Shown here: one piece after another, positions 21,112 to 59,840 of the stretch
Position numbering within the stretch: the first letter of the stretch is position 1
Layout: every line of letters starts with the position of its first letter
Notes under the pieces: model-generated
What the model was told of the DNA's origin: nothing
The model's database searches: none
What the model saw: the letters and a program-made list of their open reading frames with translations, nothing else
Program-made: the position numbers and the translations under genes
Source of the DNA: Arbacia lixula
Lineage: Eukaryota; Echinodermata; Echinoidea; Arbacioida; Arbaciidae
Direction: 5' to 3'
DNA: 64,000 nucleotides
NCBI GenBank assembly: GCA_963669155.1
Contig: CAVLGW020000021.1
Coordinates: forward strand, 61,001-125,000

Positions 21112-21142
<31 letters not shown>

Positions 21143-24207: not shown

Positions 24208-24250
24208 TACAGTACCGCTCGGCCCTGAGTGTTTACACGTTTACCTGTTT
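24208..24250. repeat. Left terminal inverted repeat of the giant element
   Basis: Matches the reverse complement of 59798-59840 at 41 of 43 positions. The differences are CGG/CAG and CCCTG/CCCCG near the outer end. It lies 637 bases after the formiminotransferase stop codon. Confidence 0.85.
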
Positions 24251-24953
24251 CATTGTTTCATTGAATGGTCGGAGCGAAACGTGTAATTCTCTCAGTTCCC
24301 TTATTCAGCCGGCGCTCAGACTCTGTGCGCTCAAGGAGAACCGCGTTTTCTTCCTCTTACACGTTTCGAGTGTCCCCGAAGGGAAGCGGAGTTGTCGGCA
24401 CTACTGCGTGTAAACGTGTAAACGTGTACACAAATCACACGCGCCGTAATGTGCGACGCGCGCGTCGAACGAGCACTCACATCTCTTTTTTGCATGTTTG
24501 TAGTGCAAAGTCACTCAAGCGCGAGCGAGCGAGCGGAGATCTAGATAATCACCACCACACACGTAACTGCGGGTACCGTACCGTGGCGGCAGTAAACGAG
24601 TAAACGTGTATACAAATCACACGCGCCGTAAATGCGGCGATACAGCACGAAGTGGTGCATTCGTAGTGGAGGTTCAAACGAGTAAACGTGTACACAAAAC
24701 ACACGCACCGTAATGCAGCGGTTGATATACAGGGAAGTGAAGCCCGATGTTTCTGTTTGTAGCTCCGAAACGTTAGTACATGTACTGAGTACTCCCTTGT
24801 ACATGTACGCCTACTGTCAGCACTGTCTCATGTGCTACTACATGTACTACTAGTCTGGGCCCTACTAATGTTAGATATCGTTACATACATGCATCGGTAT
24901 TAATATTGTTATGACAATTTATAACGGTCCTCACGAGGCTTGTACACTGTACA
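24251..24953. promoter_or_regulatory. Left subterminal region with ACACGTTTAC-type motifs
   Basis: Repeated AAACGTGTAAAC, AAACGTGTA(C/T)AC or their complements occur near 24275, 24358, 24410-24428, 24592-24610 and 24677-24694, several followed by ACAnATCACACGC. The right end carries the same motif. By analogy with Tc1-family subterminal direct repeats, these could be transposase binding sites. No gene is seen. Confidence 0.55.
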
Positions 24954-25326
24954 GTACCTTCTTCCCCTGTATACCGTACCCCGTAGCCTCTTAGGCGCTA
25001 ACGTTAGTTAGTGTACAGTTGTACTTTCGCACCTGTTTGTCCAACGACCTCCAAACAAGCACAAACTCACCCTGTTTATTTAGTAACCAAAAATACTTCC
25101 ATCTGAGTCTCCAAAGTCGAATATAAGTGAAATTTTGGCCGAAATTTTTACACTTTTTTTGCGTTAACAAGTGTCTGAAAATCGTTGGAAAATCTTGATC
25201 GCTATTCGCTGGTATTGCTGCTCTGAGAGCAAGCACAGTTACAAATTGGTCTGAATAAATGTAGCAAGTAGCGATACAGCGGCTTTTTCTATGGTGTCGT
25301 TGAAAGGCTAAAAATTGTTTTTTCCT
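24954..25326. repeat. 373-bp perfect direct repeat, left copy
   Basis: By eye identical to 40823-41195, in the same orientation. It begins GTACCTTCTTCCCCTG and ends AAATTGTTTTTTCCT. The two copies bracket the 15.5-kb inner block. The preceding bases ACAGTACC echo the outer terminal repeat. A minus-strand frame of 81 codons inside it has no recognised family. Confidence 0.9.
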
Positions 25327-27780
25327 AGAACAAACTTATGTTCTATCGTTGATTGTATTAATCAAACTGTTTATTTTTAACACAGTAATTTTCCCCCATT
25401 CGATTTTCTAGACGCCGTTCTTTGGTTTGAACCGACGTGTGTTCTTCTATTTGATAAAATAAACCCCGCTATTTCGGCTTGGCCGTCTTTACGTGTAAGG
25501 GTCTTAACTACACGACTCCGAGAGGGGTCGGACACAATGGGATGAGGAACAATGGGATGGTCAGTGGGCCCAATCCAAATCGGAATCGTCGGATCGTGTA
25601 CATGTAGGAGCTACACGACAATGTTTCGCTGATTTCAGTCGAGCCATTAACGCTCATGCGCGCTCATGCGAGAACAATTTTCTTTGGCCCGAGTCGGGGC
25701 GTTCGGTCGGTGAACAGGAATGATGCGAAAACAATCCATTATCAGTCGAGACGAAACGTGTATAAACACTCTTCCGTCGTTACAAATGTTTTCTCGTTTG
25801 ACTGAATTAACCTCGTTCTTGCGTTTTAACTAACTTATGTTCTCCTGTTTGATTAAATAAAACATGCTCTTTGAACAAACTTATGTTCTATCGTTGATTA
25901 TATTTACTCCGCTATTTTCCTTATAACAAAGTCATTTTCCCCCATTTGATTGTCTAGACTAAAGAAACCCTGCTTTTTTGGTTGAACAAACTTATATTTT
26001 CTCCTTTTGATTTTTAGCCTCGGCCGTGCTTTCGTTTTTATTTAAATATTGTAACTTACCATCAGTGGTAACTACCATTCAAACGGCTAATGAGCCCTCA
26101 TGTTTGCAGCTGTAGTTAGCATCGATGGTTAAAATGATTGGAAACCTACATGTATATGGAACAAGGCCTCAATCAAAGAATAGATCGCTACATGTATTTC
26201 GCTTTTTGTTTTGCCAATTTTATTCATGGTACATGTATGATCTTGTTGTGTTTCTTTCCGAACCTGACACTTTTCTCGTTTTTTTTTTCTCTGCAGAAAG
26301 GTTAAGGTACATGTACATGTATATAGGTACATGCACAGCGGGTACTTCCAACCAGCTCAGGGCAGATCTTGGCGGCCCTCGGCCATGGATGGACAGCAGT
26401 GGCTAGATCGGCCCATTGCGCCAGGCATCCTTACAGTATATCGATGTCGCCGCCTAGCTCTCGACAAGTTGTACTTCCGCGCGCATGCTTGCATGACTCA
26501 TACATGAGTATCATATTGCACTTCATTGCTTGATGATATATAACACGTAACACGACGAAATACATACACTAACACGCTTACTGCATGCTCACAATCTCTG
26601 AATTAAATATTCTGCTGTGCCGACTTGAATACTAAATGAATGGAATGTGTGTTTGTCCGATGCTGCTATGTTTAGTCATTATTTATGGACATTGCCATAT
26701 TACATGTAGCAAATTTGTCTCTTCCATCCCCTTTCCCGATCCCTTCTCTGGTCTCATAAAAACAGATTACTTAATTTCAATTCTTTCCATATGAACATGA
26801 TTCATCGCGGCAGCTTGGTACAATGTGTAGAGCAGCCTACTCCTTAAGTTGAATTCACAATTGTATTGCGCTTCCATTTCCCACATCCCCTCTCTATCTC
26901 TATTCTTCCATCTCAAGCCCCCTTTCCCTTCCTCCAAACTGAAATCTGTTCTTTTCGATTGTTGAAATAAAAGTTCAACAACAATGCATGCGTCAAAATA
27001 AGGGATTGATTTTTACTTTTCTTTTTCTGCTCATATATTTATCAACCCATGCACGAATAACAGGCGTGAATGTTTTTCAATGTTGGCACATTTGTAAAGT
27101 CACACAAAGGAGCTTTTTTGCAAAGGTAAGCTGCTCAACATAATCATCGAGAACAGCGAGTACCAAACAACGACTGCACGGATTCATTTAAGGTAAGTTC
27201 ATTGTATTGTCTTTAAAAGAATGAAAACTGTTGTTTGTATTTTCAAAGAGATATAAATACGCGAATCATTACACCGTACTTGGCGGGTACGATTACTTTC
27301 TTTTCATACCGAAGTACGGTAGTCCGACATGGAGCATTACGACGACTTGAATGGAGACAATATAGTATATTAACATGCACTGTTACCTTATACATGTACA
27401 GTATGAGTTGTATGTATACATGTACGTGCTCCTCTCACGTCATAATGAGTTAGAGGTGCGTCTTCATTAGCCTGAACAGACGAAATAGCGACAAGTAGAT
27501 AATCGTCTTTGCAGTGTACAGTTTAAAGATGACAGCCTGATCGAGCATAGAATTTATTTTACCGATATTAATACATAGTACAATCCTGTCATGTTTCCCC
27601 TCATCAAGGCAAGTGCCAGGCTGCGCATTTGATCAAAGAGATTAACAAAGGAGGCCATCAGGCCACTAATCGCCACGCTGGCAGCGGCGCTATTATGAAA
27701 GGATTAATAAATCTCGGCGGGGAACACCACTTGGGGAGATTAGTAGCTTAGCACAAAGGGGGCTTTGCAAACAAAGGCCT
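25327..27780. repeat. Left inverted arm of the inner block
   Basis: In order: one to two ~155-bp array monomers (25327-25480), one ~280-bp spacer block (about 25485-25765), two to three more monomers to about 26040, then about 1.7 kb of single-copy arm. The whole is the inverted counterpart of 33980-40770. The paired single-copy parts include the TACCATCAGTGGTAACTACC phrase at about 26057 against its complement near 35761, and CGGCGCTATTATGAAAGGAT at about 27686 against 34073. Short frames here do not look like genes. Confidence 0.8.
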
Positions 27781-28365
27781 ATAGGACTAAAAGGAGATGT
27801 AGCACACAATTATAATCATAGTTACACTTCCTCTCTGGTGTTTTTTTTTTCTTCTCTCATTCATTCGCTTTTGCGAACTAGTGAAGGTAACCAGAATGAA
27901 ATCGGTTATATGTACAGGTGAAGCAAATGTCCACGTAATATCACTTATCGAGGCATATACATGTATTATGTCAAATTGTGTTCGATTTTGTCCTTTTTTC
28001 TTAATTTCGAGGTGTACCTTTGTGGAAGTAATAATGAACTCTGCCAAGTTGTTTCTCTCACACCCGACGGAACGCGCTCAATTTGCATATAATATACATT
28101 CGTGTTACACTATCTATACCAACTTATTCAGCCTCTCTTCATTTTACCTCACACTCGTCTCAATTCTCTCATTATCTGGTAAAATTTTCCAGCAAAAAAT
28201 GCAATAAAGTACAGACATGAAACAAAATTGTATATTAGTTCTCCGTTTATCAATGAACTAAACATCAGTTCATAAACAAGTAAATAATCGTTTTTAAAGA
28301 ACATCAAGAACTTGGATCGCCTTTTATTATTCATGGGCCTGGATAAGAGAATCGAGAACTTGGGC

Positions 28366-28521
28366 CTAGTATCCAGTGGCCTGCCCATCACACTCGATGA
28401 CCTTCGGGATGGCCTTTGCGAGAATCCCGATGTACTTGTTGCACTTCGCCTGCGTCATCTTCGTGCCCCAGAAGAGTTGAATCGACTCGATCAGCTGGGC
28501 CTTAGTCCGGGGCTTGCATTC
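28366..28521 (-). pseudogene. Duplicate copy of the terminal exon of transposase 1
   Basis: The 156 bases are identical to the terminal exon at 29041-29196 and carry the same AG acceptor and stop codon. The copy lies 675 bp further downstream, in a locally tandemised stretch (repeat units at about 28228, 28712 and 28904). It could serve as an alternative last exon encoding the same peptide. The perfect identity implies a recent duplication or gene conversion. Confidence 0.8.
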
Positions 28522-29040
28522 CTGAAAAAAAAAAAGAAACAAAATGCAGAAAGAAAAACATAGCGTCAATTCGTCCTTATTTCAACTGATTCAACTATGA
28601 ACAAGGTATATCTTTGAAAAAAAAAATTTATGAAGAACCATAAGTTTTTTATCAAGAAAATATTACAAGTATTTTTACCCAAATATGTTTTGGAAATTGC
28701 AAGAGGCCAATTGTATATAAGTTCTCCGTTTATTAATGAACTAAACATCAGTTCATAAACAAGTAAATAATCGTTTTGAAAGAACATCAAGAACTTGGAT
28801 CGCCTTTTATTATTCATTTTTATGAAGAACCATAAGTTTTTTATCAAGAAAATATTACAAGTATTTTTACCCAAATATGTTTTGGAAATTGCAAGAGGCC
28901 AATTGTATATAAGTTCTCCGTTTATTAATGAACTAAACATCAGTTCATAAACAAGTAAATTATCGTTTTTAAAGAACATCAAGAACTTGGATCGCCTTTT
29001 ATTATTCATGGGCCTGGATAAGAGAATCGAGAACTTGGGC

Positions 29041-30464
29041 CTAGTATCCAGTGGCCTGCCCATCACACTCGATGACCTTCGGGATGGCCTTTGCGAGAAT
29101 CCCGATGTACTTGTTGCACTTCGCCTGCGTCATCTTCGTGCCCCAGAAGAGTTGAATCGACTCGATCAGCTGGGCCTTAGTCCGGGGCTTGCATTCCTGA
29201 AAAAAAAAAGAAACAAAATGCAGAAAGAAAAACATAGCGTCAATTCGTCCTTATTTCAACTGATTCAACTATGAACAAGGTATATCTTTGAAAAAAAATT
29301 TTTATGAAGAACCATAAGTTTTTTATCAAGAAAATATTACAAGTATTTTTACCCAAATATGTTTTGGAAATTGCAAGAGGCCAATTGGAATATTACCATG
29401 TTACATGCAATTGCATGGAATTATGCACAATAATGAACTCACCTTTCTAAGAAAATGCTTCATCTCGTGCCACACGAGCTCGATAGGGTTCAGGTCGGGG
29501 GACTCTGGAGGAGTAGGCCACCAATTGATTCCGTGCTGAACCATGAACTCTTTCGTCCGTCGGCTTGTATGCTGCAATGGGAAGGAAATATAAAAAAAAA
29601 AACATTCGTAATTGCATGGCACTAGGTAATTTTGAGCAACATTATTTACACTGACATTTTAATACTGTTTCGTGAATATTGTATATCAAGTAGGAGTCAT
29701 GAATATGAACATGCATTTACCTTTGGATCGTTATCCTGCATGAAGCGATGTCCCTCTGGATACTTGGCCGCGATGAAGGGGATCAGCGCCTCCTGCAGGA
29801 TGGTCTGGTAGAAGTCCTGGTCCATGATGCCGTCGAAGATCTTGATCTCCGTGGCGCCCCGCTTGGAGATACCAGCCCAGACATGAACCTTGGTGGGGTG
29901 CTTTGGGCGGGGCTTTAGAGTCCTTGCTCGGGCCTGTCCTGTGACGGGGTCGACGTGGCGGAAGCAGAGCTTAGAATGTTGTTCTAGTTGTATGCTTGAC
30001 TCGTCAGTGAAGATGACGTCGTCGAACTGCTCCCACGTCGTTAGACAGGCCATGGCATACTCTAGTCGTTTCCTCCGGTTCACGTGTCGGATGAGTTGAC
30101 AATACTGAACGCCGGTCGCTATCCATCCAAGCTTCCTCTTCGCCCTCCGAAGCGTAGATAGCGAAAACGTCCGGCCGCTGCTTGCTTCAAACATCTTCTT
30201 TAGGTCTTGAGCTGTAGTCTCGTCGTTGGCGAGCATCTGCCCGTGGATGAATTGCAGATCTTCATCCGTCAGCAACGATGGCTTGTGACGAGGGGCGTCG
30301 GAGAGGGATTCTGTCCGGAGAAAACGTTGAATAACGCCCTTGATCCCGTTGATGGAGTGGACGTTGCCCCGCTCCGACAGTGCTGCCTGTATCTGCTTAG
30401 CTGAGTACCCGTCTTTGTGCAGCTGCACAATACGAGGACGCACGTGGTCTAGAATTCGTGGCAT
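29041..30464 (-). CDS. Tc1-type DD34E transposase 1, three exons, apparently intact
   Basis: A cut-and-paste transposase acting on element ends in the nucleus. Exons are 30464-29721, 29571-29443 and 29196-29041, giving 342 residues, close to the usual 340 of Tc1 transposases. The N-terminal part (about 1-110) is a paired-type helix-turn-helix DNA-binding region. WIATG (about 114-118) leads into the catalytic core. The acidic triad is D154 in FTDESS, D244 in QDNDPK and E279 in PDLNPIE, with 34 residues between the last two (DD34E). Intron 1 splits the QDNDPK/HTS motif and intron 2 follows FLRK. No stop or frameshift is seen. It lies in the centre of the inner inverted block, and its terminal exon is duplicated downstream. 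It shares about 60% of residues by eye with transposase 2. Its 5' flank carries repeated ATTGGTCAG motifs. Confidence 0.9.
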
Positions 30465-31100
30465 GGTAGAAAGTGTGGTTCGCTGTCGTCAGATGATAGT
30501 ACATGTACTACCTACACTACGAATACGGTCCGTTTTTATACAAATATCCTGGTTATTCCTCATAACCGTCAGAACACGCTAGAGGTAATTAGTAACAAAC
30601 AGCGGGGCGCGATTGGTCAGCACCTCGGACAATAGAACTTGAGTCCACAAAAGCGGGGCTTATGATTCGTCAGCATCAAGTGTACAGTCGGACAAAGAAA
30701 CTTTTTCATACAAATAGTGTGACCTGTGATTGGTCAGCGGCATACTTTTTTGGTCAGTCTGCCAATAAGACTTTCGGTCAACTCTAACTTGCGGGTTTTA
30801 TAGAATAAGGGGGGAGCCTCTTGATGAGGTGGCGAATCGCGAGTTTAATGATCGACATAAAAACGTAAAAATGACGTTACAATACTGTTAGGTAATACAC
30901 CGTTTTAATGGCACAGATCTGATTATTAGAGGCGTTTGGATTTTCATGTTGACGAAATTAAAAGACGTGACATATATATCCTACATATTTTGATTCCACC
31001 CATATTACCTTCTATTGATTTTGTGCATAACGTATTTACCCTTATTAATAATGTCCTGCTTTTCCGCTGCCTCATACACTAAAAGACCCGTGCTCGTAGT
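30465..31100 (-). promoter_or_regulatory. Upstream region of transposase 1 with repeated inverted CCAAT-like motifs
   Basis: GATTGGTCAG occurs at 30611 and 30728, with GATTCGTCAG at 30664 and further TTGGTCAG copies nearby. Read on the gene's strand these are CTGACCAATC, that is CCAAT boxes, spaced about 55-65 bp apart in 5' flanking sequence. Function is inferred from motif and position only. No TATA box was identified with confidence. Confidence 0.4.
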
Positions 31101-31101
31101 A

Positions 31102-31851
31102 GCACTACTTCTCTCTGCTTTGGGCGTAAGTCTTATGGCATTGTGGACTGGAAATCCCATGCATTGCAATATAATTGGTGCAGGGTGCATATAAACCCGA
31201 CTAAAGTTATGAAATCAATATCAAACAAGTATTCTAAGAAACGTCATAAACATGGCGCATTCACAAAGTTTCCAACATTATCTATGAAAGAGAAGGATGC
31301 ATTGGATCTGAAGGAGTGTGCTGCACACGTGTCTCGTCATTTCAGACGAATGTGACATTTTATCGTCATTTTCATTATTATCATAAATTCGCGCTGAAAG
31401 CAACATCTACAAACCGCTCATTACTGCGGTTCTGTCCTTATCATTTTGGTCATTTTAATAACACGTGGAAATATTATGTGGCAAGGTACAGTGTATGTAT
31501 GCTGAGTTTCCAAAAAGAATGGTGATTTGGGTCTTATAACTGGTGCTTGAAAACAATATCCGGCTCATGATAATCGCGCTTCGGCAGCTTGGCGGCGTGG
31601 TTGCAAGCCATTGTTTAGACAGTTAGCGCGATTAAAGTTACAATAAATTCTCAATACAAAAGGGCGTGGCCAGCCATTGGTCAGCGGCATGTCTAAAAGT
31701 AAAACAATCAAAAACTTTGCTCCTAGCTAAGGGGGGGAAGGGGGTGGGGGGGGGGGGCGTGATTGATAGACAGCATTGCTGCAATGTCGGACAATTGTCT
31801 TCGGTCAACAATATTTGGCTCGTATTCCAATTACTGATACGATAGCCTGCA
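31102..31851. repeat. ~750-bp direct duplication, first copy
   Basis: Nearly identical to 32243-32989 (offset 1141). It starts GCACTACTTCTCTCTGC and ends GATACGATAGCCTGCA. The main differences are the length of a poly-G run and a few bases. It retains a 70-codon frame shared with the second copy. Confidence 0.85.
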
Positions 31852-32191
31852 TGTCGTGATTCGAATCATTGACAGGTATACTGGGTAACAAAGCTATAAT
31901 TCAATAAAGCACATTAATGTGGGAAATGTCCTTATCTCGAAGCACGAAGAAATTTCCATTAACGAAATCACAGTACATTTTGACAATGCTATGGATATAA
32001 ACACATTTCATTCTCGTGACAAATTCTTTAAGAGTACAAAATGTCTTCCTGATGTGACCCGTTTTGACGACGATGTGCACAGTTTGGTATCACGCAAAAC
32101 TGGCCCAACTTTATACATGAAATCTATATCATCTGTCGAAATGACACCCTCACATTGCACATTACACTGGCATTAAAGTGTTACAAAGTAC

Positions 32192-32497
32192 ATGTCAATT
32201 AATGCGGATACCCCTTTGCTTGATCTCGTTTCCCCTCAACGCGGCACTACTTCTCTCTGCTTTGGGTGTAAGTCTTATGGCATTGTGGACTGGAAATCCC
32301 ATGCATTGCAATATAATTGGTGCAGGGTGCATATAAACCCGACTAAAGTTATGAAATCAATATCAAACAAGTATTCTAAGAAACGTCATAAACATGGCGC
32401 ATTCACAAAGTTTCCAACATTATCTATGAAAGAGAAGGATGCATTGGATCTGAAGGAGTGTGCTGCACACGTGTCTCGTCATTTCAGACGAATGTGA
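32192..32497 (+). CDS. Hypothetical small basic protein, 101 residues
   Basis: I do not recognise this frame. It begins MSINADTPLLDLV, has one CxxC pair (CFGC, about residues 23-26), a lysine-rich stretch around KYSKKRHKHG and a basic end RHFRRM. Two thirds of it lies in the duplicated 750-bp segment, where the first copy keeps the last 70 residues unchanged. That may reflect recent duplication rather than selection. A second frame just upstream (31919-32176, MGNVLISKHEE) could be a neighbouring exon but is equally unsupported. Treat it as a possible cargo gene or as chance. Confidence 0.25.
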   Translation: MSINADTPLLDLVSPQRGTTSLCFGCKSYGIVDWKSHALQYNWCRVHINPTKVMKSISNKYSKKRHKHGAFTKFPTLSMKEKDALDLKECAAHVSRHFRRM

Positions 32498-32989
32498 CAT
32501 TTTATCGTCATTTTCATTATTATCATAAATTCGCGCTGAAAGCAACATCTACAAACCGCTCATTACTGCGGTTCTGTCCTTATCATTTTGGTCATTTTAA
32601 TAACACGTGGAAATATTATGTGGCAAGGTACAGTGTATGTATATGCTGAGTTTCCAAAAAGAATGGTGATTTGGGTCTTATAACTGGTGCTTGAAAACAA
32701 TATCCGGCTCATGATAATCGCGCTTCGGCAGCTTGGCGGCGTGGTTGCAAGCCATTGTTTAGACAGTTAGCGCGATTAAAGTTACAATAAATTCTCAATA
32801 CAAAAGGGCGTGGCCAGCCATTGGTCAGCGGCATGTCTAAAAGTAAAACAATCAAAAACTTTGCTCCCAGCTAAGGGGGGAAGGGGGTGGGGGGGCGTGA
32901 TTGATAGACAGCATTGCTGCAATGTCGGACAATTGTCTTCGGTCAACAATATTTGGCTCGTATTCCAATTACTGATACGATAGCCTGCA
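32243..32989. repeat. ~750-bp direct duplication, second copy
   Basis: Second copy of 31102-31851. The sequence between the copies (31852-32242) is unique. Confidence 0.85.
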
Positions 32990-33979
32990 CTAATCAACAA
33001 AAGACAATACATTCGGACTTTATAAACCTGACAGAAAGAGAAAGGAAGGAGGTACCTGCCAGAAAAAGCTTTGCAGAGAGGGGAGTGTGATTGAAAGAGA
33101 AGATTATGGGAAAACAGTGAAAGTCTTATACTCTCAAGAGTGTAAGGATTTTAAAAAAAAAATAGGGACTAAAATGTAGAAAAAAGATGAAAGGAGCGAA
33201 GATGTGAAAGGGGGAAGATATTAAAGTGATAGGGAGGGTGAGAAAAAAAATAAAGGGAGACACTGGGATGAGAAAAGGGGCCGAGAGAGAGAGAGAGAGA
33301 GGATTAATTGGGAAGGGAGAGAGAGGAATTAAGATATACATGTAGTGAGAAGCAGTCAGGAAGTCCATTGCAGTCTCAGCGTACACGTAGCACAATAATT
33401 AGCGGACGAAAGCATCGCATCATGTTTTCCGAGAAACCGCCGGGGAAGCGTCTTAGCAGAACTGCGCACCTCGCTCAAAATAACTCCAAATAACAGAATG
33501 TAATTTATAATTACATTTTGGGGAGTTTCATGTCAGAAAACATTATGAAATTAAGGATGAACCATTGTGGTATTGTGTCCCCCGTCCCCCCCCCCCCCCC
33601 CCGGGATTTCCGCCCATGCCGGATAGCGTGTTGTTAACGAGACAGATCGGCTTTTCTTAACCATTACGGCGACTTGAAAAGAACCAAAGACCTTTTAACG
33701 CATTAACTATATATATTCTGTCTCATGTATACTATACTTTGTGCATGTAAGTGTGTGTGAAGATACCATACCGAAAGATTGATGTAGTATGCGTTTTTCA
33801 ATCCAGCCATAAATTCGGCATTCAACCGCAGAAATCGCGCTTGAAGTGAAATGCATAACAATTGGGGGAAAATATAATTAGCTCTTATTCTACTCAGATA
33901 TGTCTTCTACATAATGGCAAATTTTTGTTAAGAAATATTTGGTAGGATTATGAACATTTTATGACAGTTTTGAAGCATG
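32990..33979. other. Spacer between duplication and right arm
   Basis: No gene recognised. It includes a purine-rich, GA-repeat stretch (about 33020-33330), a (GA)n run near 33285-33302, a poly-C run at about 33585-33602, and the small inverted pair ATGTAATTTATAATTACATT near 33500. Confidence 0.4.
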
Positions 33980-36900
33980 TTTTCGTTAATACAGCCCCGC
34001 CTCTTACTGGCCCCCTTTGTGCTAAGCTACTAATCTCCCCAAGTGGTGTTCCCCCACCGAGATTTATTAATCCTTTCATAATAGCGCCGCTGCCAGGGTG
34101 GCGATTAGTGACTCTGATGGCCTCCTTTTTAATCTCTTTGATCAAATGCGCAGCCTGGCACTTGCCTTGATGAGGGGAAACAGGACAGGATTTCAGTTGA
34201 TATCGGCAAAATAAATTCTATGCTCGATCAGGCTATCACCTTTAAACTGTACATTACCTTACTGTAAAGACGATTATCTACTTGTCGCTATTTCGTCTGA
34301 TCGGGCTAATGAAGACACTCCTCTTACTCATTATGACGTGAGAGGAGCACGTACATGTATACATACAACTCATACTGTACATGTATAAGGTAACAGTGCA
34401 TGTTAATATATTATGTTGTCTCCATTCAAGACGTCGCAATGCTCTATACATAAAGACCGTACTTCGGTATGAAACGAAAGTAATCGTACCCGGCATGTAC
34501 GGTGTAATGATTCGTGTATTTATTTCTGTTTTAAAATGCAAATGAGCAGTTTTCATTCTTTTAAAGACAATACCATGTACGTACCTGAAATGAATCAGTG
34601 CAGTCGTTGTTTGGCTTGTTTGGTACTCTGGACAAAATTGGGTCCCACGCTGTTCTCGATGATTACGTTGAGTGGCTTACCTTGCACAAAAGCTCCTTTG
34701 TGTGACTTTACAAATGTGCCAACATTGAAAAAACATTCATGCCTGTTATATTCATGCATGGGTTGATAAATATATGAGCAGAAAAAGAAAAGTAAAAAAA
34801 TAAATCCCTTATTTTGACGCATGCATGTCCAGCTATGTTATTCGAAGCTTAATTGTGATGAAGTGCAAATAAAAGATTGCTGTTGAACCTTTATTTCAAC
34901 AATCGACAAAATCAGATTTCAGTTTTGAGGAAGGGAAATGGGGCTTGAGATGGAAGGATAGAGATAGAGAGGGGATGTCGGAAATGGAAGCGCAATACAA
35001 TTGTGAATTCAACTAAAGGAGTAGGCTGCTGCACACATTGTACCAAGCTGCCGCGATGAATCATGTTCATATGGAAGGAATTGAAATTAAGTAAACTGTT
35101 TTTATGAGACCAGAGCAGGGATCGGGAAAGGGGATGGAAGAGACAAGTTTGCTACATGTAATATGGCAATGTCCATAAATAATGACCAAACATAGCAGTA
35201 TCAGACACATTCCATTCATTCAGTTTTCAAGTCGGCACAGCAGAATATTTAATTCAGAGATTGTGAGCATGCTGTAAGCGTGTTATTGTATATATTTCGT
35301 TGTGTTACGTGTTATATATCATCAAACAATGAAGTGCAATATGATACTGATGTATGAGTCATGCAAGCATGCACGCGGAAGTACAACTTGTCGAGAGCTA
35401 GGCGGCGACATCGATATACATGTAAGGATGCCTGGCGCATTGGCCCGATCTAGCCACTGCGGTCCATCCAAGGCAGAGGGCCGCCAAGATCTGCCCTGAA
35501 CTGCTGTACATGTACCTTTAGACATGTTCATGTACCTTAACCTTTCTGCAGAGAAAAAAAAAACGAGAAAAGTGTTAGGTTCGGAAAGAAACAAGATTAT
35601 ACATGTACCATGAATACAATTGCCCCCAAAAAGGCGAAATAGCGAGCTATTCCGTGATCGAGGCCTTGTTCCATATACATGTACATGTAGGTTTCCAATA
35701 ATTTTAAACATCGATGCTAACTACAGCTGCAAACATGATGGCTCATTAGCTGTTGTAATGGTAGTTACCACTGATGGTAAGTTACAATATTGAAAAAAGT
35801 TAAGTTTGATTTAAAAAAAAAACCGAAGCACGGCCCTAACAATCAACAGGAGAACATTAGTTGGTTAATGCGACAGAAAGGGGTCTAGACAATCAAATGT
35901 GAAAATGACTTTGTTAAAGGAAAAAAACATGGTTTATATAACGAGATATCAACGAGATAGCATAAAGGTGTTCAACCGAAAGCCTTGTGATTTATTATTT
36001 TATTTAATTAGGAGTTTAACGCATGTTTGTTAAAACCAAGGAACGGCGTCTATAGTCGTGTTAAAGGAAAATAGCGGGGTTAATATTATCAACGATAGAA
36101 CATAAGTTTGCTCAACAGAAAGAGCGGGGTTTATTTTATCAAATAGGAGAACACATGTTGGTTAATGCCAAAGAACGGCGTCTAGACAATCGAATGGGGG
36201 AAAATGACTTTGTTAACGGAAATAAGCGGGCTCTATATAGTCAACGATATCAAAAAAAATTTTTCAACCGAAATAGCGGGGTTTATTTTATCAAATGGGA
36301 GAACATACATATATATTGGTTAGAACCAAAGAACGGCGTTTAGACAATCTAATGGGGCTAAATAACTTTGTTAAATGAAGACGGTTTGATTAAAACAATC
36401 AACAAATAGAACATAAGTTTGTTCAACCGATACAGCGGGGTTTATTTTATCAATTAGGAGAACACATGTCGGTTCAAACCAAAGAACGGCGTCTAGAAAA
36501 TCGAATGGGGGAAAATTACTTTGTTAACGGAAAAGAGTTTGATTAATATACAATCAACGATAGAACACAAGTTTGTTGAACCGAAAGAGCGGGGTTTATT
36601 TTATCAAACAGATAAACAGACGTAGGTTAAAATCAAAGAACGTCGTCTAGACAGTCGAAAGGGGGAAAGTCACTTGGTTAAAGGAAAATAGCGGGGTTAG
36701 CATAATCAGCGATAGAACTTAAGTTTGTTCAACCGAAAGAGCAGGGTTTATTTCATCAAATAGATAACGGACGTTGGTTGAAACCAAAGAACGGCGTCTA
36801 GAAAAACGAATGGGGGGAAATGACTTTGAGGAAAATAGTGGGTTAAATATAACCAATGATATAAACATAAGTTTGTTCAAAGAGCATGTTTTATTTAATC

Positions 36901-39900: not shown

Positions 39901-40770
39901 TTTGTTAAAGTAAAAACAGTTTGATTAATACAATCAACGATAGATCATAAGTTTGTTCAACCGAAAGAGCGGGGTTTATTTTATCAAACAGATAGATAGA
40001 CGTTGGTTAAAACGAAAGAACGGCGTCTAGAGAGTCAAATGGGGGAAGGACACTTGGTTCAAGGAAATTAGCGGGGTTAGTATAATGAACGATAGAACAT
40101 TAGTTTGTTCAACCGAAAGAGCGGGGTTTATTTTATCAAACAGATAGATAGACGTTGGTTAAAACGAAAGAACGGCGTCTAGAGAGTCGAATGGGGGAAG
40201 GACACTTGGTTCAAGGAAATTAGCGGGGTTAGTATAATGAACGATAGAACATCAGTTTGTTCAACTGAAAGAGCGGGGTTTATTTTATCAAACAGATGGA
40301 TAGATTTTGGTTAAAACCAAAGAACGGCGTCTAGACAGTCGAATGGGGGAAAGTCACTTGGTTGAAGGAAAATAGCGGGGTTAGTATAATCAACGATAGA
40401 ACATCATTTTTTTTCAACCGAAAGAGCGGGGTTTATTTTATCAAACAGGAGAACATAAGTTAGTTAAAACGCAAGAACGAGGTTAATTCAGTCAAACGAG
40501 AGAACATGTTTTCGCATCATTCCTGTTCACAGACCGAATGCCCGGACTCGGGCCAAAGAAAATTGTTCTCGCATGAGCGCGCATGAGCGTTAATGGCTCG
40601 ACTGATATCGGCGAAACATTGTCGTGTAGCTTCTACACGATCCGACGATTCCGATTTGGATTGGGCCCACTGACCATGTTCTAATCCCATTGTTCCTCAT
40701 GCCATTGTGTCCGACCGCTCGCGGAGTCGTGTAATTAAGACCCTTACACGTAAAGACGGCCAAGCCGGAC
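33980..40770. repeat. Right inverted arm of the inner block, array-expanded
   Basis: Inverted counterpart of 25327-27780 but almost three times longer. The single-copy part is about 33980-35790. The remainder is array: monomers of ~155 bp plus four spacer blocks near 36950-37215, 38225-38540, 39300-39620 and 40490-40760, giving a higher-order period of about 1.1-1.3 kb. Outermost bases CACGTAAAGACGGCCAAGCC match the complement near 25480-25500. Confidence 0.8.
35800..40480. repeat. Satellite-like array, ~155-bp monomer
   Basis: Roughly 25 monomers, each carrying GAGCGGGGTTTATTTTATC, CCAAAGAACGGCGTCTAGA, CGAATGGGGGAAA and CAACGATAGAACATAAGTTT in that order. The copies diverge and several are shortened (for example a doubled AACGGAGGTTGGTTGAAACC unit near 37430, 38755 and 39840). 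Spacer blocks contain GACCATCCCATTGTTCCTCA, CATGAGCGCGCATGAGCG and a TATACACGTTTCG motif. No gene. Confidence 0.85.
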
Positions 40771-46599: not shown

Positions 46600-46669
46600 G
46601 AGAGGAATGGCGAAAGATGAGACTCCACTGAAACAAAAGCGGTAACATTAAGCCAATGAACGCTTGAGG

Positions 46670-47005
46670 TTCTAACAATGCAACCAATCACAGCGTACCT
46701 GCGCGGCGACTCGGACGTAATACGATGTAACAATGGCAACCAATCACGGCGTACCTGCGCGCCGACCCGGACGGAATACAATGTAACAATGGCAACCAAT
46801 CACGGCGTACCTGCGCGCCGACCCGGACGGAATACAATGTAACAATGGCAACCAATCACGGCGTACCTGCGCGGCGACTCGGACGGAAAACAATGTAACA
46901 ATGGCAACCAATCACATCGTACCTGCACGGCGACTCGGACGGAATACAATGTACAATGTAACAATGGCAACCAATCACATCGTACCTGCACGGCGACTTT
47001 GACGG
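46670..47005 (-). promoter_or_regulatory. Six ~58-bp repeats with CCAAT boxes and splice-donor-like sites, upstream of the BEN gene
   Basis: Six units each contain CAACCAATCAC on the plus strand and, on the gene strand, CGCGCAGGTACG or CGTGCAGGTACG. The first is a CCAAT box; the second is a good CAG/GTACG splice donor. A frame from ATG at 47092 on the minus strand reaches the first such donor in the phase needed to join the acceptor ahead of 46599. The array may therefore hold multiplied first-exon donors, promoter boxes, or both. Confidence 0.5.
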
Positions 47006-47092
47006 GACTAAAGAACAAAGCAACAAAAGGATTCCAATAATTCGGACTCTTTTTTTTTTTTTGCTTGTGCGTTTATTAAACGTCTCTTCCAC

Positions 47093-50000: not shown

Positions 50001-51878
50001 GAATGACTACAGAAAAAGATTGCAAAAACTGTGCGTACCTTTAAAGTTTATGGAGCATTCCCGTGGGAAAACAAAAATCAAGTATATATTGCAGAGCTGC
50101 ATAAATCATTCGAATGTCAAACCGAATTCCTACATGAGTAGTGACGATAACTTAAATCATGATGTACCGACACAGTACTGGGTCGGAGTGTTGGCTTATG
50201 CAAAACTACAAAGAAAATGAATGGATCGTATAATCAGTTTACTTGTTTATGTATGTATGGAAAATCAACTGGGGAAATTGCAACCCACTCCCACTCTCAT
50301 GAGCTCAGATATGAATGAAAATACAAACAAACAAAAAAGTAAAAGAAACGATACAGTAACTATTTCACCCAAACTTTTGCAATATTAAGGTTTCTGTGAT
50401 ACTTTCTGACATGTTTTTGTCCACTTCACCTCATCTTGGCGATTTGTGCATTCCCTCTCTCCTAAACTCGTATGAAATACCCGGCACCTTTTAAAGGGTG
50501 TGTACAGTTCTGGTCGAGGTGAAGATTTAGCTTTTAACGTTTCGTGAGATACATGATGTATTCAGAAACCACTCTATGAGATGTCAAAGGGCATGCAGTT
50601 CTAAGGGGTATCAAAAGTTTATTCGATGAAAATCGGTTTTGAAGTGGCTGAGATATCCAAAAATAATGTGAAACAAAGATATACTAATAAAGTTGGGGCA
50701 TGTCGCCTTTTATCATTAGCACTTTTTTGGATATCTCAGCCATTTGAAAACCATTTTCATCAAATAAACGTTGAATCCTTCTTAAAATTACATGCTCTTT
50801 CATATTTCATAAGAGGTCTTTCATCATCTCACTTAGGAATATTGAAAACATGAATCCCTACCTCAACCAGTACTGTACAGTCCCTTTAAGTGCATATAGT
50901 TGTTTTAATACTCGGCATTATTTTGAGATATTTCTTTAGGATGTATGATTATGATAATATATTATATACACTGTAGGCACTATTGATCGTAGATTCGTTT
51001 ATTTGTGATACGGGGAGGGGAAAGGCATATGACGTAAAAACACGTGTGCTGTGTTTCTCATTATAATAGGCCTATTTGGTGTGTCAACAGAAGCGTTGAA
51101 TGTGGGTGCAGATGTGGGATTTTGTTTTAAATCTAACGCAGGTCTATAGAGCACTGGACTTTGAATCATCAAGGCTTGTTATCTTTATTAGCGCTTTCTT
51201 TATTGTCCATTTGTTTCTGATCGCACACATCGTAGTAGATTACCATGATCACCGGGGAAGGTTCCTTAATTAACACTCACGGGTACTCTTTCTTTTATTA
51301 TCCGCTATTCTGTCCACACTTTTGTCCCGCTGCGAGTGCTTTCCTTACCGGCATGCGCCTTTATAATCTTAACATATAGGCGGAGTCCCCCCCCCCCCCC
51401 CCTCCCGAACACGTTGGTCATAACAAAGAAGAATTACTGGGTGTGTATATAGTTCAACGGTTAATTCTCTTTGATGCCCAAATTGTACAGGACTGGTGAC
51501 TTCGTCACTATTATATATTGAAAGTACTGCCGTCCATTATACCACCGACCAGTTCACAGAATGGACTTAAGATGATTATTTTGAGCATCATTGTGAATAC
51601 TCTACAAGAAAACAACCTTTAAATAAAAAAGAATGTACAGCATACAGTACAAGTGGACATACACACACACGCACATTAAACAGACACACAAATAACTAAT
51701 TCTTGTTGCGACAGAAGTTGTGTAACTCATGTAATAACATTTCCGGCCAAAAAGTAACTGATTCTTGTTTGTTTTTTGTTTCACTTCCCACCAAGACAGG
51801 AAATGACTCTATGATTAATAGTACATGTTTTTACAGCAGTTGCATCAAGAAAATATGACTTCTTAATTCTTTTAAGTC
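47093..51878. other. Cargo region without recognised genes
   Basis: No frame shows family resemblance. A diverged direct duplication is present: about 49200-49560 resembles 51290-51660 (shared GGCATGCGCCTTTAT, ACGTTGGTCA, TTGAAAGTAC and TTATACCACC). About 50340-50490 resembles 53600-53750 (GTAAAAGAAACG, ACAGTAACTATT). (GA)n/(CA)n runs lie near 48065-48090, and a poly-C run lies at about 51388. Confidence 0.4.
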
Positions 51879-53174
51879 CAAGGCTGCACACTGGCGCCGG
51901 TCCGACGGTCCGAAACCGGCAAAAGTCACTGTTAACTTGGGCCAGTAACTTTTCAGGAATTGCCAAAGTTTACTGGTCCGACATGACCAGTAAAAATAAC
52001 ACTGTTGGGTCAGTCGAGAAAAAGAGCAGCCCTGATCAGGGAAAATAGAATGCAATCGCATCGTTCAACAAGACGCAAAACTCGAGTAATGATGTACAGA
52101 GTGCTTTTTGTTTTTAAAACGATCCCCGTTCGTGCTACAACTTGCGACGATCGGCTGTCATGGCTAAAAGAGTATACAGAATCGCACATTTTGTTTTGAG
52201 ATGCACTTGAGAGCTCCTTGTATACAGTGTATTTGCTACAATGTAAATCCAGTCGCAACGAGAAAAAAAAAAAACGCATTCATAACTCTGAATGTAATTA
52301 ACAAAGCAACTATTTGCAGAGAAACGAAGAATATGTTTTGGAAATGAATGACATCCTTTCCATTTTTGTACCGTCTTCCAGTTCTTTTTCTGTCTTTCTT
52401 TCTTTCTGATTGTATTTTGCTGGTTAGTAAACATTAGCATGTACGTATACGTCTTAAACAAGCGAAATAAAAAACCGAAATAATTCATAAGATAAGATAA
52501 TTAAAGATAGGGCAAAACGATAATGAATTCGGCCCTGTTGTGTATCTCTCAAGAACGAATATACAAAATGCGAAGAGATGGAGAGAAAAATGAAGAGCGC
52601 ATTTTCTACCCCTTTTGGCCCGTGCATCAAAAAAAGATTAAGCCCTTCCGTAAATACAGCGGGAATAAGTCATGAAACCATAGCAGTCCCGCTGGTATTT
52701 GAGGTAGAGATAGGCCTAAATATGGATCACAAAGTCGTGTACCTTTCATGAATGCACGCACAAAATGCGAGGAGATTATCGAGAGAAAAATAAAAAAAAA
52801 CTGCATTTTTAACTTCTCCTGGTGGGTATAACATCATCAAATATTACAGCCGAAATACTTCACGAGATACTGCAATCCCGCCGAGAAACAAAGAGCGTGA
52901 AATTACGCAGCGAGTTTAATAACACAGATTTCTCTATGTGTACTTGTGTCGATGTCTAAAAAGTTTACATAAACGCATTTGATACAATCTGATATGTTCT
53001 TTATCATTTTACACGGTAATTCACAAACAATTTAATGTTAATCTGTAAATTAATAAAATGTGAATTTGTTGACCAGCAAATTTTCTGAGCGGACCAGTAA
53101 AAAAAAATAATGATAAATAAGAAATCTTTACTGGTCTGAAAGAGACAGGTCGGACCTAATAGTGTGCAGCCCTA
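51879..53174. mobile_element. Degenerate hAT-like non-autonomous element
   Basis: The left end CAAGGCTGCACACT and right end AGTGTGCAGCCCTA are inverted and close to the CAGGGCTGCACA-type ends of hAT elements. Both subterminal zones also contain CTGGTCCGAC/GGTCGGAC and TTTACTGGTC motifs in opposite orientation. The 1.3-kb interior has no transposase-like frame. No clear target duplication was seen. Confidence 0.6.
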
Positions 53175-54780: not shown

Positions 54781-56916
54781 ATGCCGCGTATCCTCGATCA
54801 CGTTCGCGTTCGCATCGTGCAGCTTCATAGAGACGGGCGTTCGGTTCCAGAAATTCGTTCTCTGCTCGAAGACGCTGGAAACGTTCATTCCGTCGCAGGG
54901 ATAAGGAGGGTGGTTCGGCACTACCAATCCACCGGGAGCTTGACCGACCAACCACGAGCAGCGCCACCCTCTGTTTTGAGCCAGGAAGACTTGGACTTAA
55001 TCCACGAGCGCATGCTCTTGGACGACGAGACGACGTCTCCAGACCTGCAGAAGGTCCTTCTGAGCGAAACCGGGCGGACTATTTCGTTACCAACTATTCG
55101 CAGGGCAAGGAGGAAGCTAGGCTGGATCGCTACCGGGGCCAGGTATTGCCAGCTGATACGGACTGTGAACCGGGTCAAGCGTCTCGACTACGCACTCGAC
55201 TGCCTGAGCAGAAACGAACAGTTTGAGAACGTCATCTTCTCGGACGAGTCGAGCGTTCAGCTGGATAACCACGCGACGGTGTGCTTCAGGCATGTACACC
55301 CGGACACTGGAGAGAGCGCTCCCAGGCAGCTGAAGCCAAGACCTAAGCACCCTGTGAAGGTCCACGTTTGGGCGGGGATCTCCAAGCGGGGATGCACGGA
55401 GATCCGCATTTTCGACGGCATCATGGACCAGGACTTCTACCAGGGACTGCTTCGAGACGCCTTGCTCCCCTTCATAGCGACACACTATCCGGACGGCCAT
55501 CGTTTCATGCAAGATAACGATCCAAAGGTAGGCATTTTTATGTTCTGTTTGTTAAAATAAAACGAAAAATAGAATGCATATTTTATATGAATATTCATAC
55601 ACGTGTAAAGCTTGTTCAATCGACCTCATGCTTTTCGAGAAATACAGTTGTATGTCCAAAAGATATATTTGTAAAAAGTTGAAATATATCACGGCAATAA
55701 TCATTCTAACATCATTGAATAAACCTGAGCATGCTGTGTTTTTCTAAGTAACACTTACGTATATAACGAGTAAATATGAACTGTAAATAATAAACATGCA
55801 ATTTTATTGTAACGGCACAGCAGAGATGTACAAAGCATGTACTCACCCACTTTCTTTTCACTCTTTTTACAGCATACCAGTCGACAAACGAAGGCATTCA
55901 TGGAAGAGCAAGGGATCAACTGGTGGCCGACTCCCCCGGAATCTCCCGACCTCAATCCAATTGAGCACGTGTGGCACGAGATGAAGCATTTTCTCAGGAA
56001 GGTGAGGCTCATGTGCATAAAGCTGTAGTTTATTATAATTGCTGTACTCCGCATGTTTGTATATGTATTTTTTTCTTGTTCTTCTTTTTTTCTATGAAGC
56101 GTAGATATTCGTTAAATTAATTGACTTGGTTTATTTTCATCATAGTAATAGTGTTCACACAACAGATACTCATACAACATTGTATGTATTTTTATTTTTC
56201 TTGTTCTGCTTTTTATCTATGAAGCGTAGATATTCGTTAAATTCGTTGACTTGGTTTATTTTCATCATAGTAATAGTGTTCACACAACAGATACTTATAT
56301 GTATGTATTTTTTCTTGTTCTTCTTTTAAGCGTAGATATTCGTTAAATTCATTGACTTGGTTTATTTTCATCATAGTAATAGTGTTCGCACAACAGATAC
56401 TTATAGCAGTGGATATTATTCTCGTGGAGTGTAGTCTTTGTTGATACACGTTTGTATGTTTATTTCAGATATCATCCAGCCGCAGTTTTATGTACTTTTG
56501 TGATAATTTCTTTGTACTATTTGATAAGAAGTGATTTCCATAATTTAATTTGCGGGAATAAAGTCAATCAATCAATCGACCACAAACTGTAGTCAGCGAT
56601 TTGCATAAACGGAAACGGCTAAGAGATGTAAAGGCAAGCTTAACCGGCCGCCATGCCCTATACTGTATATGCTTTTGAAATTCTTGTAGCTATTTGGATG
56701 AAACTTACATGACCAACTAATGTCAATTTTTTTTTTTCATTCATTCATTTTTTCTTGCAGGTACACAAGCCCAGGACGAAAGCAGAACTTGTTGCAGGGA
56801 TTAAGCTGTTCTGGAGCGAGCGAATGACGCCGGAGAAGTGCTGCACATACATCAGGAACCTCGGCAAAGCTTTGCCCAAGGTCATCGAGTGCGAGGGGAG
56901 AGCAACAGGATTCTAG
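54781..56916 (+). CDS. Tc1-type DD34E transposase 2, three exons, apparently intact
   Basis: Exons are 54781-55527, 55873-56001 and 56761-56916, giving 343 residues. An ATG 15 bases upstream is in frame, but I chose 54781 because transposase 1 also starts MPRILDHV. The layout matches transposase 1: N-terminal helix-turn-helix DNA-binding part, GWIATGARYCQLIR, then the catalytic triad D155 in FSDESS, D245 in QDNDPK and E280 in PDLNPIE (34 residues between the last two). Introns fall at the same two codon boundaries, after QDNDPK and after FLRK, so the two genes are true paralogues that share an intron-bearing ancestor. No inactivating change is visible. It lies 2.9 kb from the right end of the giant element and is the more natural candidate for its own transposase. 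Confidence 0.92.
56040..56420. repeat. Three ~105-125-bp tandem repeats in intron 2 of transposase 2
   Basis: GAAGCGTAGATATTCGTTAA (or AAGCGTAG...) followed by TTGACTTGGTTTATTTTCAT occurs near 56096, 56221 and 56328, each with CATAGTAATAGTGTTC and ACACAACAGATACT downstream. Confidence 0.8.
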
Positions 56917-59229
56917 ACGACGGAACGAGACTGAAGATTGTTACATGCACATTTACTGTCTTCCAACGCTATTCTGTAATCGAAATGCGAATGTATTTTC
57001 TAATCTTCATGATCAAGTTTACTATTCATTATTCCTCTTCATTTCACGAACTGCAAAGTTCATAGCGTTCAACAGCACTTCACGTACAATAGTCCAATTA
57101 CTTTATTTGTATTCTTCTTATGTTACTTGTAAATATGTATATTCATATTACATTGTTGTCGATCTTATACTTGCAAAATTTACTTTATGTTACAAAAATT
57201 AAATGAGAATGATATTCGACAACTTAGCAAAAGCGTATTTCTTTCGCCTCAACTTTTCTTTTTCCTTCAGTTAAACGCAAACTTATTGTGAGTGTGAGTA
57301 CTATGATAAATCAATGTGTAATTGTGTATGCCATTGTGTGTGTGATTGTGTGTGTGTTTGTGTGTTTGCGTGCATTGTGGATGGAGGTAGACGGGAGCAG
57401 ACATCTACAAATGTATTCGATGCAAACAATGACCGATAATTAAAATCATATTAAAACACTTACAGTGACCAAAAAAATAATAATAATAATAATAAAAAGA
57501 CAATACATGAAGATAATCAAAAGCACATTAAAAAATGAAACAGAAAAATATTATAACAGTGACAAGCAACATACTGAAGAGAATAAAGTATTAACTACAG
57601 GCATGCAAGGTGGATGGAGTTACACGGACCAGGCATATTTTAGTATTGTTTTCGATAAACAAAACATTTAATCATAATCAACACAAATGATTAGAAAACG
57701 AAAACGTTTACAGTGAAAAAAAAAAATCCAAATTGAGATACTAAAAAAGCGAAAGCATTGATTACAGTGGCAAGAAACATACTGAAGAGAAAGATAGAAT
57801 GACAATTAGCATTATATGACATTCTATTATGGGTTGGAACAAAAGGGTTTACGACTTAAAAATCTTAATCTGTGCAAAGTTGTGAATGGGAGTTAAGAGA
57901 TTAATATTAGCGATGTTTACACATAAAACTGGAGGACGCGGCGAACTCATTGTATATAGACGTATGCTTCTTTGTTATTGTTTTCTTTGGGGAGGGGAGG
58001 TTATGAAAATATTAATGTGTTACCGCTTGTTTGGTGTTTGACAAAAGTAATTACGTCAGCTCGACAGTAAAAAATGGAAGAAAGAAACTGATCTTGATGC
58101 GTCTGTTTTTTATCATTTTACTTATTTTCTTTTACGTGTGACTGTATATCTGTCAACACATTTTTTTTTGCTGACTATTAAAAATGATGGAAGGATAATA
58201 GGCCTATGTGTAGAAAACAGTAAAAGTTGTTTACGAAAAAAAATAAGAAGTATCCATCATTAATCCTGCACAAAAATGGACCTTTACTACAAAACAGAAG
58301 CAAATATTGGGGTTGCAGTTCTTTTATGTGTATACACAATGAAAAAAAAAATGAAATGAAATATAAATACTACAATGTAGTACTAGTACAAATTATTTGT
58401 ACACGTACTATGAAATCAAACATGTTTCCACAGTGCCATGAGTATCTTTTTAGGTAGAATGAACACTTTCTATAAAGAAGTCCATTATATTAATACATGA
58501 TTGTACACTTTTTCTAACGCTATTATCATTCAGTTATCATTATTAGAACTATATGTATTATATTACAAGAAACAAATCTACGTAGACTTCAACTTCCTTC
58601 TCATTTTCTTTTCTTCCTCTTTCTCTCTCCCTCCTTCTAATAGCCTTACCTTTTTCTTCCACTTTTCCTTCAACCTCATTATATTCCCTTCAAAACTATT
58701 CAAATTAAATTATCAAATCATGATAAATTAAATACTTGCCACAATTTTAAAGACAGGATGTCTAAATCCTGGAATGAACAATTTGTATCAATATTTTAAA
58801 TAGTGATAATCATGGTAGTGTCAATGAAAACGGAAAAAATACGAAAAAGAAAGTAGGGGCTACACGCATTGCACGAGTTGTGTTCAATATTGTTAGTACC
58901 GGTGAGCGGCTAATTAGCGACTATCAGAATCGATTAAATCGTCGACATCGTTCTCTGCCATTTCAATGCACGACAGTATTTATGAATGAGTATAGAAGCT
59001 ACACTATAGTGATAGTATTTTAGTATTTACTACACATGTAATGTAGTACGTGTATGTTCACGACCGACGTACTTCTCATTAAAACTCCGATTTCACATTT
59101 TCTTCCCTTTTGGGCTTTCTAATTCCATGAAAACTCTCTGATATGGTTCAATTTAGCATCTTCAACAGCTGCACAGACAAACGGCGAAGCGAACGGTAAG
59201 TGTGCATTACTACATGAAGTCAGCTGTGC
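56917..59229. other. 3' flank of transposase 2, no gene recognised
   Basis: AT-rich sequence without credible coding frames. It holds an (TG)n stretch near 57335-57370 and a diverged ~200-bp pair near 57465-57600 and 57690-57810 (shared GACAAGCAACATACTGAAGA-like text). A possible polyadenylation signal AAATTAAATG lies near 57196. Confidence 0.4.
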
Positions 59230-59797
59230 TTTGAATGAAAACGATAGTGCAATTTCGATCAGCGCATTTTCTTGCCCATGGTGGCAGCCGGGGCCAATGC
59301 GAACGGAACATACAAGTACATGGACCGTATTTGCATTACGAACTTGTCCTGAACAAGTTGGTGTGGTACTCGGCACAGCGTGGAGCGAGCGTGTTTTACG
59401 GTGAACCGTTCACTTCGTGTTCCATGATATACGCGGTGCACACAGTCGTGCATGCTGCTGCATGCTGCATGACAAATGTGTGCGTTGTGTGTGTTGACGG
59501 CACTTGCACGGAAGTCGTGACAATCACGGCCCCAACCAAGCAAGGGAGGTGGGCATGGGGGAACTATGTGCGCGTGCACGCTGCATGCGTGAGTGCTCCC
59601 GTCGCTCGCGCGCGCACAGACATTGGCATACTGTCCATTTACACGTTTACACGTTTCAATACTTCGGAGACTTCGATTGTTTCCGAAGAGTGGCATCTCC
59701 GATTTACACGTTTCATTGGGTCATGGCCGGGTAACCGCGCTTGCGTGTAGATTCTATTCTACACGTTTCAGAAGCCGGATATGCGTGAATACAACCC
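59230..59797. promoter_or_regulatory. Right subterminal region with ACACGTTTAC-type motifs
   Basis: TTTACACGTTTACACGTTTC near 59638-59657, TTTACACGTTTC near 59702, and TACACGTTTC near 59760 mirror the left subterminal motifs. The zone is GC-rich, with CGCGCGC and GCATGC runs. Long frames on both strands here follow from composition and are not called as genes. Confidence 0.5.
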
Positions 59798-59840
59798 AAA
59801 CAGGTAAACGTGTAAACACTCGGGGCTGAGCGGTACTGTA
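59798..59840. repeat. Right terminal inverted repeat of the giant element
   Basis: Reverse complement of 24208-24250 with two mismatches. Ends GAGCGGTACTGTA. Host sequence resumes at 59841, with AATAAA at about 59859. Confidence 0.85.

Follow-up and report, generated by a model that had tools for sequence, protein, structure and literature searches.

Seven copies with the same ends point to a giant Tc1/mariner transposon in the sea urchin Arbacia lixula

Introduction

How large can a Tc1/mariner transposon become, and what may it carry besides its transposase? This question is raised by an element of 35.6 kb in the genome of the sea urchin Arbacia lixula, at positions 24208 to 59840 of the window (the whole 64-kb stretch of DNA that was analyzed), which is the last part of the 125,000-base contig CAVLGW020000021.1 (hereafter C43) in an assembly of 607 Mb and 590 contigs. 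Few DNA transposons are as widespread as the Tc1/mariner elements, which are also standard gene-transfer vectors and are taken to be small since longer elements jump poorly. In a published account (PMC8533490), they typically measure 1.3–2.5 kb, and an element of the related Sailor group is described as colossal at 6,979 bp. We conclude, with a probability of roughly 0.88, that the element of the window is a giant Tc1/mariner transposon and the longest of seven copies that share the same ends within one genome. It is placed in Tc1/mariner because of the features that were tested, namely a TA target, terminal inverted repeats (TIRs), a DDE_3 domain, and a DD34E catalytic triad.

Results

Paired Ends at Seven Genomic Places

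The two extremities of the element mirror each other, as positions 24208–24250 and the reverse complement of 59798–59840 are identical at 41 of 43 positions, with a TA bordering both. With up to 3 mismatches allowed, a 30-base TIR pattern was matched twice in the window and 0 times in 100 shuffles. The TIR pattern had 0 matches in viral contigs. The motif ACACGTTT is moreover concentrated next to both ends, with 7 occurrences in the first 500 bp (~0.03 expected) and 5 in the last 300 bp (~0.02 expected), out of 18 in the whole element (~2 expected), and these clusters are a probable transposase binding region.

When the genome was searched with the left 72 bp, 14 matches were obtained (all 14 candidates scored), which consist of seven left ends at 100% identity and seven right ends at 95% over 42 bp. 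These 14 ends face each other as seven left–right pairs that lie 8.3 to 35.6 kb apart, at seven different genomic places, with a TA on both sides in 7/7 cases. The flanks of the copies (up to 1.5 kb), compared pairwise, have nothing in common except short repeats of at most 112 bp. With both TAs included, the six other copies measure 15,463, 8,348, 15,552, 15,636, 15,259, and 16,150 bp, such that the window copy (35,633 bp) has more than double the length of the next longest (16.2 kb). Even when up to 8 mismatches of 30 were allowed, no further TIR was found inside any of the seven copies, and this result, together with the 14 paired ends, rules out two separate short elements. The ends are nearly identical between copies (3 variable sites across the left 744 bp), hence the amplification of the family looks recent; the pairwise mismatch amounts to 0.06–0.38% in aligned blocks with a minimum of 500 bp and 97% identity, a filter that favors similar blocks.

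An Element-Free Paralogue of the Insertion Locus

A search with the left flank identified, among the best 40 of 4976 candidates, a second place on the same contig (C43:57926–58820, 90% identity over 916 bp). In C43:56919–58820, the left-flank match runs into the match of the right flank (82–86%, ~800 bp, in two main pieces) and the element is absent. Because the flanks are contiguous in this paralogue, they were most simply neighbors before the arrival of the element, and a single insertion into a single locus is the best reading of the window copy. The exact empty site of the window copy would read ...TGATAAAG-TA-GTGGAGGG. The initial annotation, made from the letters of the window, had proposed to look for such a junction: an element-free site does exist in paralogous form, and no exact single-TA junction was found. 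Positions 23285–24198 of the window lie within a duplicated segment of the contig, of which the other copy is without the element.

Two DD34E Transposases

The features of the element are as follows, in window coordinates.

24208..59840: whole element including a TA on each side, 35,633 bp; body 24210–59838
24208..24250, plus strand: left TIR with its flanking TA (TA-CAGTACCGCTCGGCCC...); the seven genomic left ends are identical over 72 bp
59798..59840, minus strand: right TIR with its flanking TA; 41/43 identical to the left
24234..24691: left subterminal ACACGTTT cluster (n = 7, both orientations), at equal positions in 7/7 copies
59641..59813: right subterminal ACACGTTT cluster (n = 5), at equal positions in 7/7 copies
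29041..30464, minus strand: transposase A, predicted exons 30464–29721, 29571–29443, and 29196–29041; 342 residues, DD34E
28366..28521, minus strand: duplicated last exon of transposase A; 5 of 6 A-bearing copies have it
54781..56916, plus strand: transposase B, predicted exons 54781–55527, 55873–56001, and 56761–56916; 343 residues, DD34E
26037..35798: A-block, transposase A between long internal inverted arms (~26037–27763 and 34010–35798)
36088..40479, plus strand: satellite-like arrays with a ~152-bp unit and with breaks; inverted counterpart at ~25326–25887
40820..42311, plus strand: segment 99.9% identical to positions 744–2235 of copy C8; element positions 16,613–18,104
42312..53085: region absent from the six other copies, with the BEN gene inside; element positions 18,105–28,878
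42525..46446, minus strand: BEN-domain gene, predicted exons 46446–46358, 45623–45410, 44895–44701, and 43523–42525; 498 residues
53810..59840, plus strand: B-block and right end, 99.8% identical to positions 2321–8348 of copy C15b

The models of transposases A and B, spliced by eye, have three exons each, with introns at the same positions and no stop. Their catalytic triads are D154/D244/E279 in A and D155/D245/E280 in B, with 34 residues from the second D to the E in both, within the 34–41 that characterize the superfamily, and the Pfam domain DDE_3 (PF13358) is matched at 54.3 and 53.8 bits, respectively, for a cut-off of 28.6. Among structures of the PDB, the best match of B is Sleeping Beauty SB100X (E 9e-20). 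A and B are identical at 229 of 342 residues (67%), and their nonsynonymous divergence (dN) of 0.24 relative to a saturated synonymous divergence (dS) of ~2 leads us to read them as long constrained, and thus as having diverged under constraint. A, B, and an exon from a related array on contig C17 form one clade (100/100) in a 65-row tree, whose remaining rows are 62 of the 120 homologues listed (2414 found), selected by rank and length and including three close partial homologues.

The exons of A are present in 6/7 copies and those of B in 2/7, and both transposases are together solely in the window copy: of the six others, five carry A alone and one carries B alone. Between copies, these exons are 100% identical, save for C8 and C3, whose exon 1 has 2 mismatches, and exon 1 of A or B is open in all seven. 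The enzyme that serves the element is inferred to be A or B. On the whole, the initial annotation, which had proposed one giant Tc1/mariner element here, is supported by the paired ends, the TA flanks, the DD34E genes, and the element-free paralogue. Its 43-bp TIR with two mismatches and TA at both borders, its shared subterminal motifs (far above expectation at both ends), and its two DD34E transposase genes (34-residue spacing, DDE_3 above cut-off) all hold; the search of the same genome that it had suggested yielded six further TA-flanked copies, and the alternative that it had named, ends drawn from separate short elements with partners of their own, fails on the seven pairs and the lack of an inner TIR.

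Relatives of the transposases also occur elsewhere in the genome. At C17:4394036–4425734 lies a tandem array of four A-type intron-bearing units at a spacing of ~5 kb (with one 10-kb gap), whose main pieces are 92–95% identical to the A region of the element; exon 1 is full-length and open in one unit, and one unit's exon 1 has 96% protein identity to A. More distant relatives form a degraded tandem cluster at C12:5936001–5956000, with breaks near the same intron positions and no ACACGTTT motif in the 20 kb read, and they are clustered also at C12:2.63 Mb and C5:25.15 Mb.

A Predicted BEN-Domain Gene as Cargo

Besides its transposases, the element is predicted to carry a four-exon gene with GT–AG splice sites, whose main exon encodes a BEN domain (Pfam E 4.7e-07). 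The first 215 residues of its product have no homologue at E 0.001 or better among 4281 candidates, and residues 1–125 have no match in the PDB at E 1. The surrounding region (element positions 18,105–28,878) is absent from the six other copies at 90% identity and a 100-bp threshold. In a genome search with the BEN region, which missed the region's own place, the matches were of at most ~0.3 kb, the best of them in a repetitive coding stretch. Six-frame Pfam scans of practically the whole element (save ~0.2 kb of minus-strand frames near 54.9 kb) returned only BEN and DDE_3 above cut-off, in scans that short or strongly diverged exons could slip past; Por_Secre_tail and Homez matches were set aside as sub-threshold. 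The multi-exon BEN-like gene and the satellite-like arrays of the initial annotation are thereby confirmed, the former through a Pfam match and a predicted model of 498 residues and the latter as ~152-bp units, and the label of cargo suits the BEN gene, whose region is missing from the other six copies.

Three further loci hold relatives of the C-terminal BEN exon (all 29 candidates were scored) and are given here with their identities.

C17:4,383,596–4,388,313: 42–45%
C19:1.25 Mb: 52–53%
C15:16.9 Mb: mostly 47–72%

The group on C17 lies 11.6 kb from the A-type transposase array (C17:4,399,962–4,420,599), and the chance of a distance below 15 kb is ~6 in 10,000, as computed post hoc for 3 BEN loci and 4 other close transposase clusters. 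On the evidence of this one extra locus, C17, BEN may be an old companion of the transposase. At C15:16897304–16901123, the BEN-like exons form a tandem array, and some of them are open.

Mosaic Interiors and the History of the 35.6-kb Form

Between their fixed ends, the copies differ by whole blocks. Copy C5 corresponds to the window copy minus element positions 13,647–32,989 and minus one 0.7-kb repeat at the last exon of A, and differs further by some 20 bp at the 13,647/32,989 joint. Copy C15b consists of the left 750 bp, some array, and element positions 29,603–35,633 of the window copy. In C8 and the matching C3, the segment adjoining the left end is the one found at element positions 16,613–18,104 of the window copy, where its first 376 bp repeat positions 24951–25326 of the window (375/376). 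This doubled stretch would have been left by template switching or when two copies recombined. The arms of the A-block, of ~1.7 kb each, are 89–93% identical (from alignments to copy C8), and 152-bp satellite units lie outside them. In the C1 copy, 3.4 kb at element positions 10138–13514 are unique to that copy.

On these block structures, the copies are mosaics, and the window copy may be a fusion of A-type and B-type elements and not the original form. More precisely, it could be a recent fusion of an A-type element (left) with a B-type element (right) through shared subterminal or satellite sequence, the members of the family normally measuring 8–20 kb. The 376 bp doubled in the window copy, once at its own left end and once at 40820, just before the B-side, favor such a fusion, as do the separation of A and B among the six other copies and the 99.8% identity of the B-side to C15b. 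However, the window copy has no second TIR inside, the BEN region is in no other copy, and C5 joins A to element position 32,989, deep in the B-side, which is as expected of descent from a copy with two transposases and thus favors the 35.6-kb form as the original. We hold the fusion tentatively, at slightly less than even odds. It concerns the history of the window copy only and is compatible with a giant Tc1/mariner family.

Neighboring Features of the Window

Shortly before the element, a host gene at 22088–23571 has a weak match, below cut-off, to the formiminotransferase N-terminal domain. Further upstream, a hairpin at 10948–11905 has arms of ~0.46 kb that are 90–94% complementary, with a 47-bp loop, and adjoins a 199-bp tandem pair (11933–12330). 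Downstream of the element, a minus-strand open reading frame of 244 residues (62655–63389) is gag-like by eye, with no Pfam match.

Discussion

Several observations weigh against the reading of this element as a giant Tc1/mariner transposon. First, transposition is deduced from traces left in the sequence (seven places and an element-free paralogue), and the models of the transposase and BEN genes are likewise predictions. Second, the helix-turn-helix matches of the transposases, HTH_Tnp_Tc3_2 in A and B and HTH_SB in A, have E values of 5e-5 to 9e-4 and fall below the curated Pfam cut-offs. Third, the paralogue is not a clean empty site: it is also without 254 bp at the insertion point (9 bp on the left, the TA, and 243 bp on the right), a gap bordered by an imperfect short direct repeat, its two right-flank pieces are separated by ~0.2 kb of paralogue-specific sequence, and three matches of 36–59 bp stand out of order in it. 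Fourth, when the joined flanks of the 7 copies were searched, no spanning match appeared among the best 40 of 3016 candidates and each half-flank was found at its own place; the matches listed were filled by the left-flank repeat of the C8 copy, and the known paralogue at C43:56919–58820 was not among them. Fifth, the BEN gene is in 1/7 copies, and among the best 150 of 458 candidates no close relative of the transposases lies near the BEN loci of C19 and C15. Finally, the ends of the family are absent from the 40 kb read around the C17 array, where inverted pairs are short and weak, and since an A-type tandem array exists there without these ends, A need not belong solely to this element.

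With regard to the C8 flank just mentioned (C8:7010451–7010591), it is an interspersed repeat, for many copies of which the matches end either exactly at the same TA or within a few bases of it; on this basis, the C8 copy may have inserted at the border of another element.

The C17 array also lends itself to an explanation in which the ends are moved by another transposase, with A, B, and BEN as passengers of a giant nonautonomous element. Yet each of the seven copies retains A or B with exon 1 open. Short copies are expected of the usual nonautonomous families, and no short copy occurs among the 14 end matches. We thus consider that explanation improbable. An assembly artefact, in which ends of different elements would be misjoined across satellite arrays, is conceivable for a copy that sits on a contig as small as 125 kb and contains arrays that are hard to assemble. 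It is more improbable still, as the 14 ends are all paired with no orphan half, the element-free paralogue has the two flanks side by side, and the six other copies sit on contigs of 22–56 Mb; with no inner TIR either, we regard an assembly chimera as ruled out. Lastly, a virus or virus-like element with a borrowed Tc1 transposase, in the manner of Teratorn and piggyBac, could be suspected from the giant size and from a BEN domain, which is known from some viruses too, and is the least credible of all, being ruled out by six-frame Pfam scans of the element, which found no polymerase, capsid, packaging, or protease domain and which diverged exons could escape.

How, then, could a giant Tc1/mariner transposon be mobilized and reshuffled? 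Its movement is likely of the cut-and-paste type, in which the element is excised and then inserted at a TA, the predicted binding sites of the transposase being the 43-bp inverted repeats and the adjoining ACACGTTT clusters. After excision, the gap would often be repaired from another copy, and the repair copying may slip inside the satellite and inverted arrays. Such slipping repair would produce mosaic interiors (internal losses, moved segments, loss of one transposase) with both ends fixed, and, with selection acting on the ends and not on the interior, the element could reach 8–36 kb and hold a BEN gene. The BEN protein might then be a DNA-binding companion that binds the arrays or counters silencing, one that is seemingly dispensable for movement because six of the seven copies are without it.

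Among known systems, Tc1, Sleeping Beauty, and their kin are alike in TA target, TIRs, and a DD34E transposase with DDE_3, and the family described here differs by its size of 8.3–35.6 kb, its two transposases (in the window copy), its BEN gene, and its arrays. Small size and a single intronless open reading frame are typical of Tc1/mariner and do not define it; the present copies span 8.3–35.6 kb, with two introns per transposase model. The size, the two transposases, and the cargo make this element a new variant within Tc1/mariner. The Starships of fungi are also giant mobile elements with variable cargo between fixed features. They use a tyrosine recombinase (captain), in contrast to the DDE transposase, the TIRs, the TA target, and the animal host seen here, and no captain tyrosine recombinase was found in the six-frame Pfam scans of the element. 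Polintons/Mavericks are giant DNA elements too (~15–20 kb), self-synthesizing with a DNA polymerase B and a retroviral-type integrase; the same scans revealed no polymerase or integrase gene.

Other comparisons come from published accounts. The TLEWI, mollusc Tc1-like elements, are similar in having an intron-bearing Tc1-type transposase, with 3–5 spliceosomal introns (PMC10379824); here, there are two introns, another size, and cargo. Teratorn, a piggyBac–herpesvirus fusion, likewise belongs to the giant DNA transposons of animals and combines short TIRs with inverted repeats and additional genes (PMC6431247); it differs by its piggyBac-type enzyme and its ~90 other predicted genes, some of them herpesviral, none of which were seen in the Arbacia lixula element. 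The Paramecium elements Sardine and Thon are likewise Tc1/mariner elements with complex ends, their TIRs being of 500–700 bp (PMC3408717), but they are DD35E elements of a ciliate germline and the TIRs here are of 43 bp. KolobokP belongs to a different superfamily (PMC9587614). By a term search, the word mariner is absent from the text of a giant-transposon review (PMC6431247), and among the titles listed in searches of open-licence PMC articles, a set with preprints outside, none names a giant Tc1/mariner element.

From a broader evolutionary perspective, we give an even chance to the existence of a lineage of giant cargo-bearing Tc1/mariner elements, in which two anciently diverged, constrained transposases and a BEN companion would travel together, the C17 locus would be a decayed earlier member, and the copies of 8–36 kb would still be moving and reshuffling, as an animal counterpart of Starships from a DDE superfamily. 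The span of this family, 8.3 to 35.6 kb, suggests that very large loads are within reach of natural Tc1 enzymes, and its ends, subterminal sites, and enzymes are material for direct tests of cargo load. The presence of two constrained paralogous transposases in one element makes their cooperation or competition a testable question, and the link with BEN, if true, would place a DDE superfamily of animals among the giant transposons that carry cargo.

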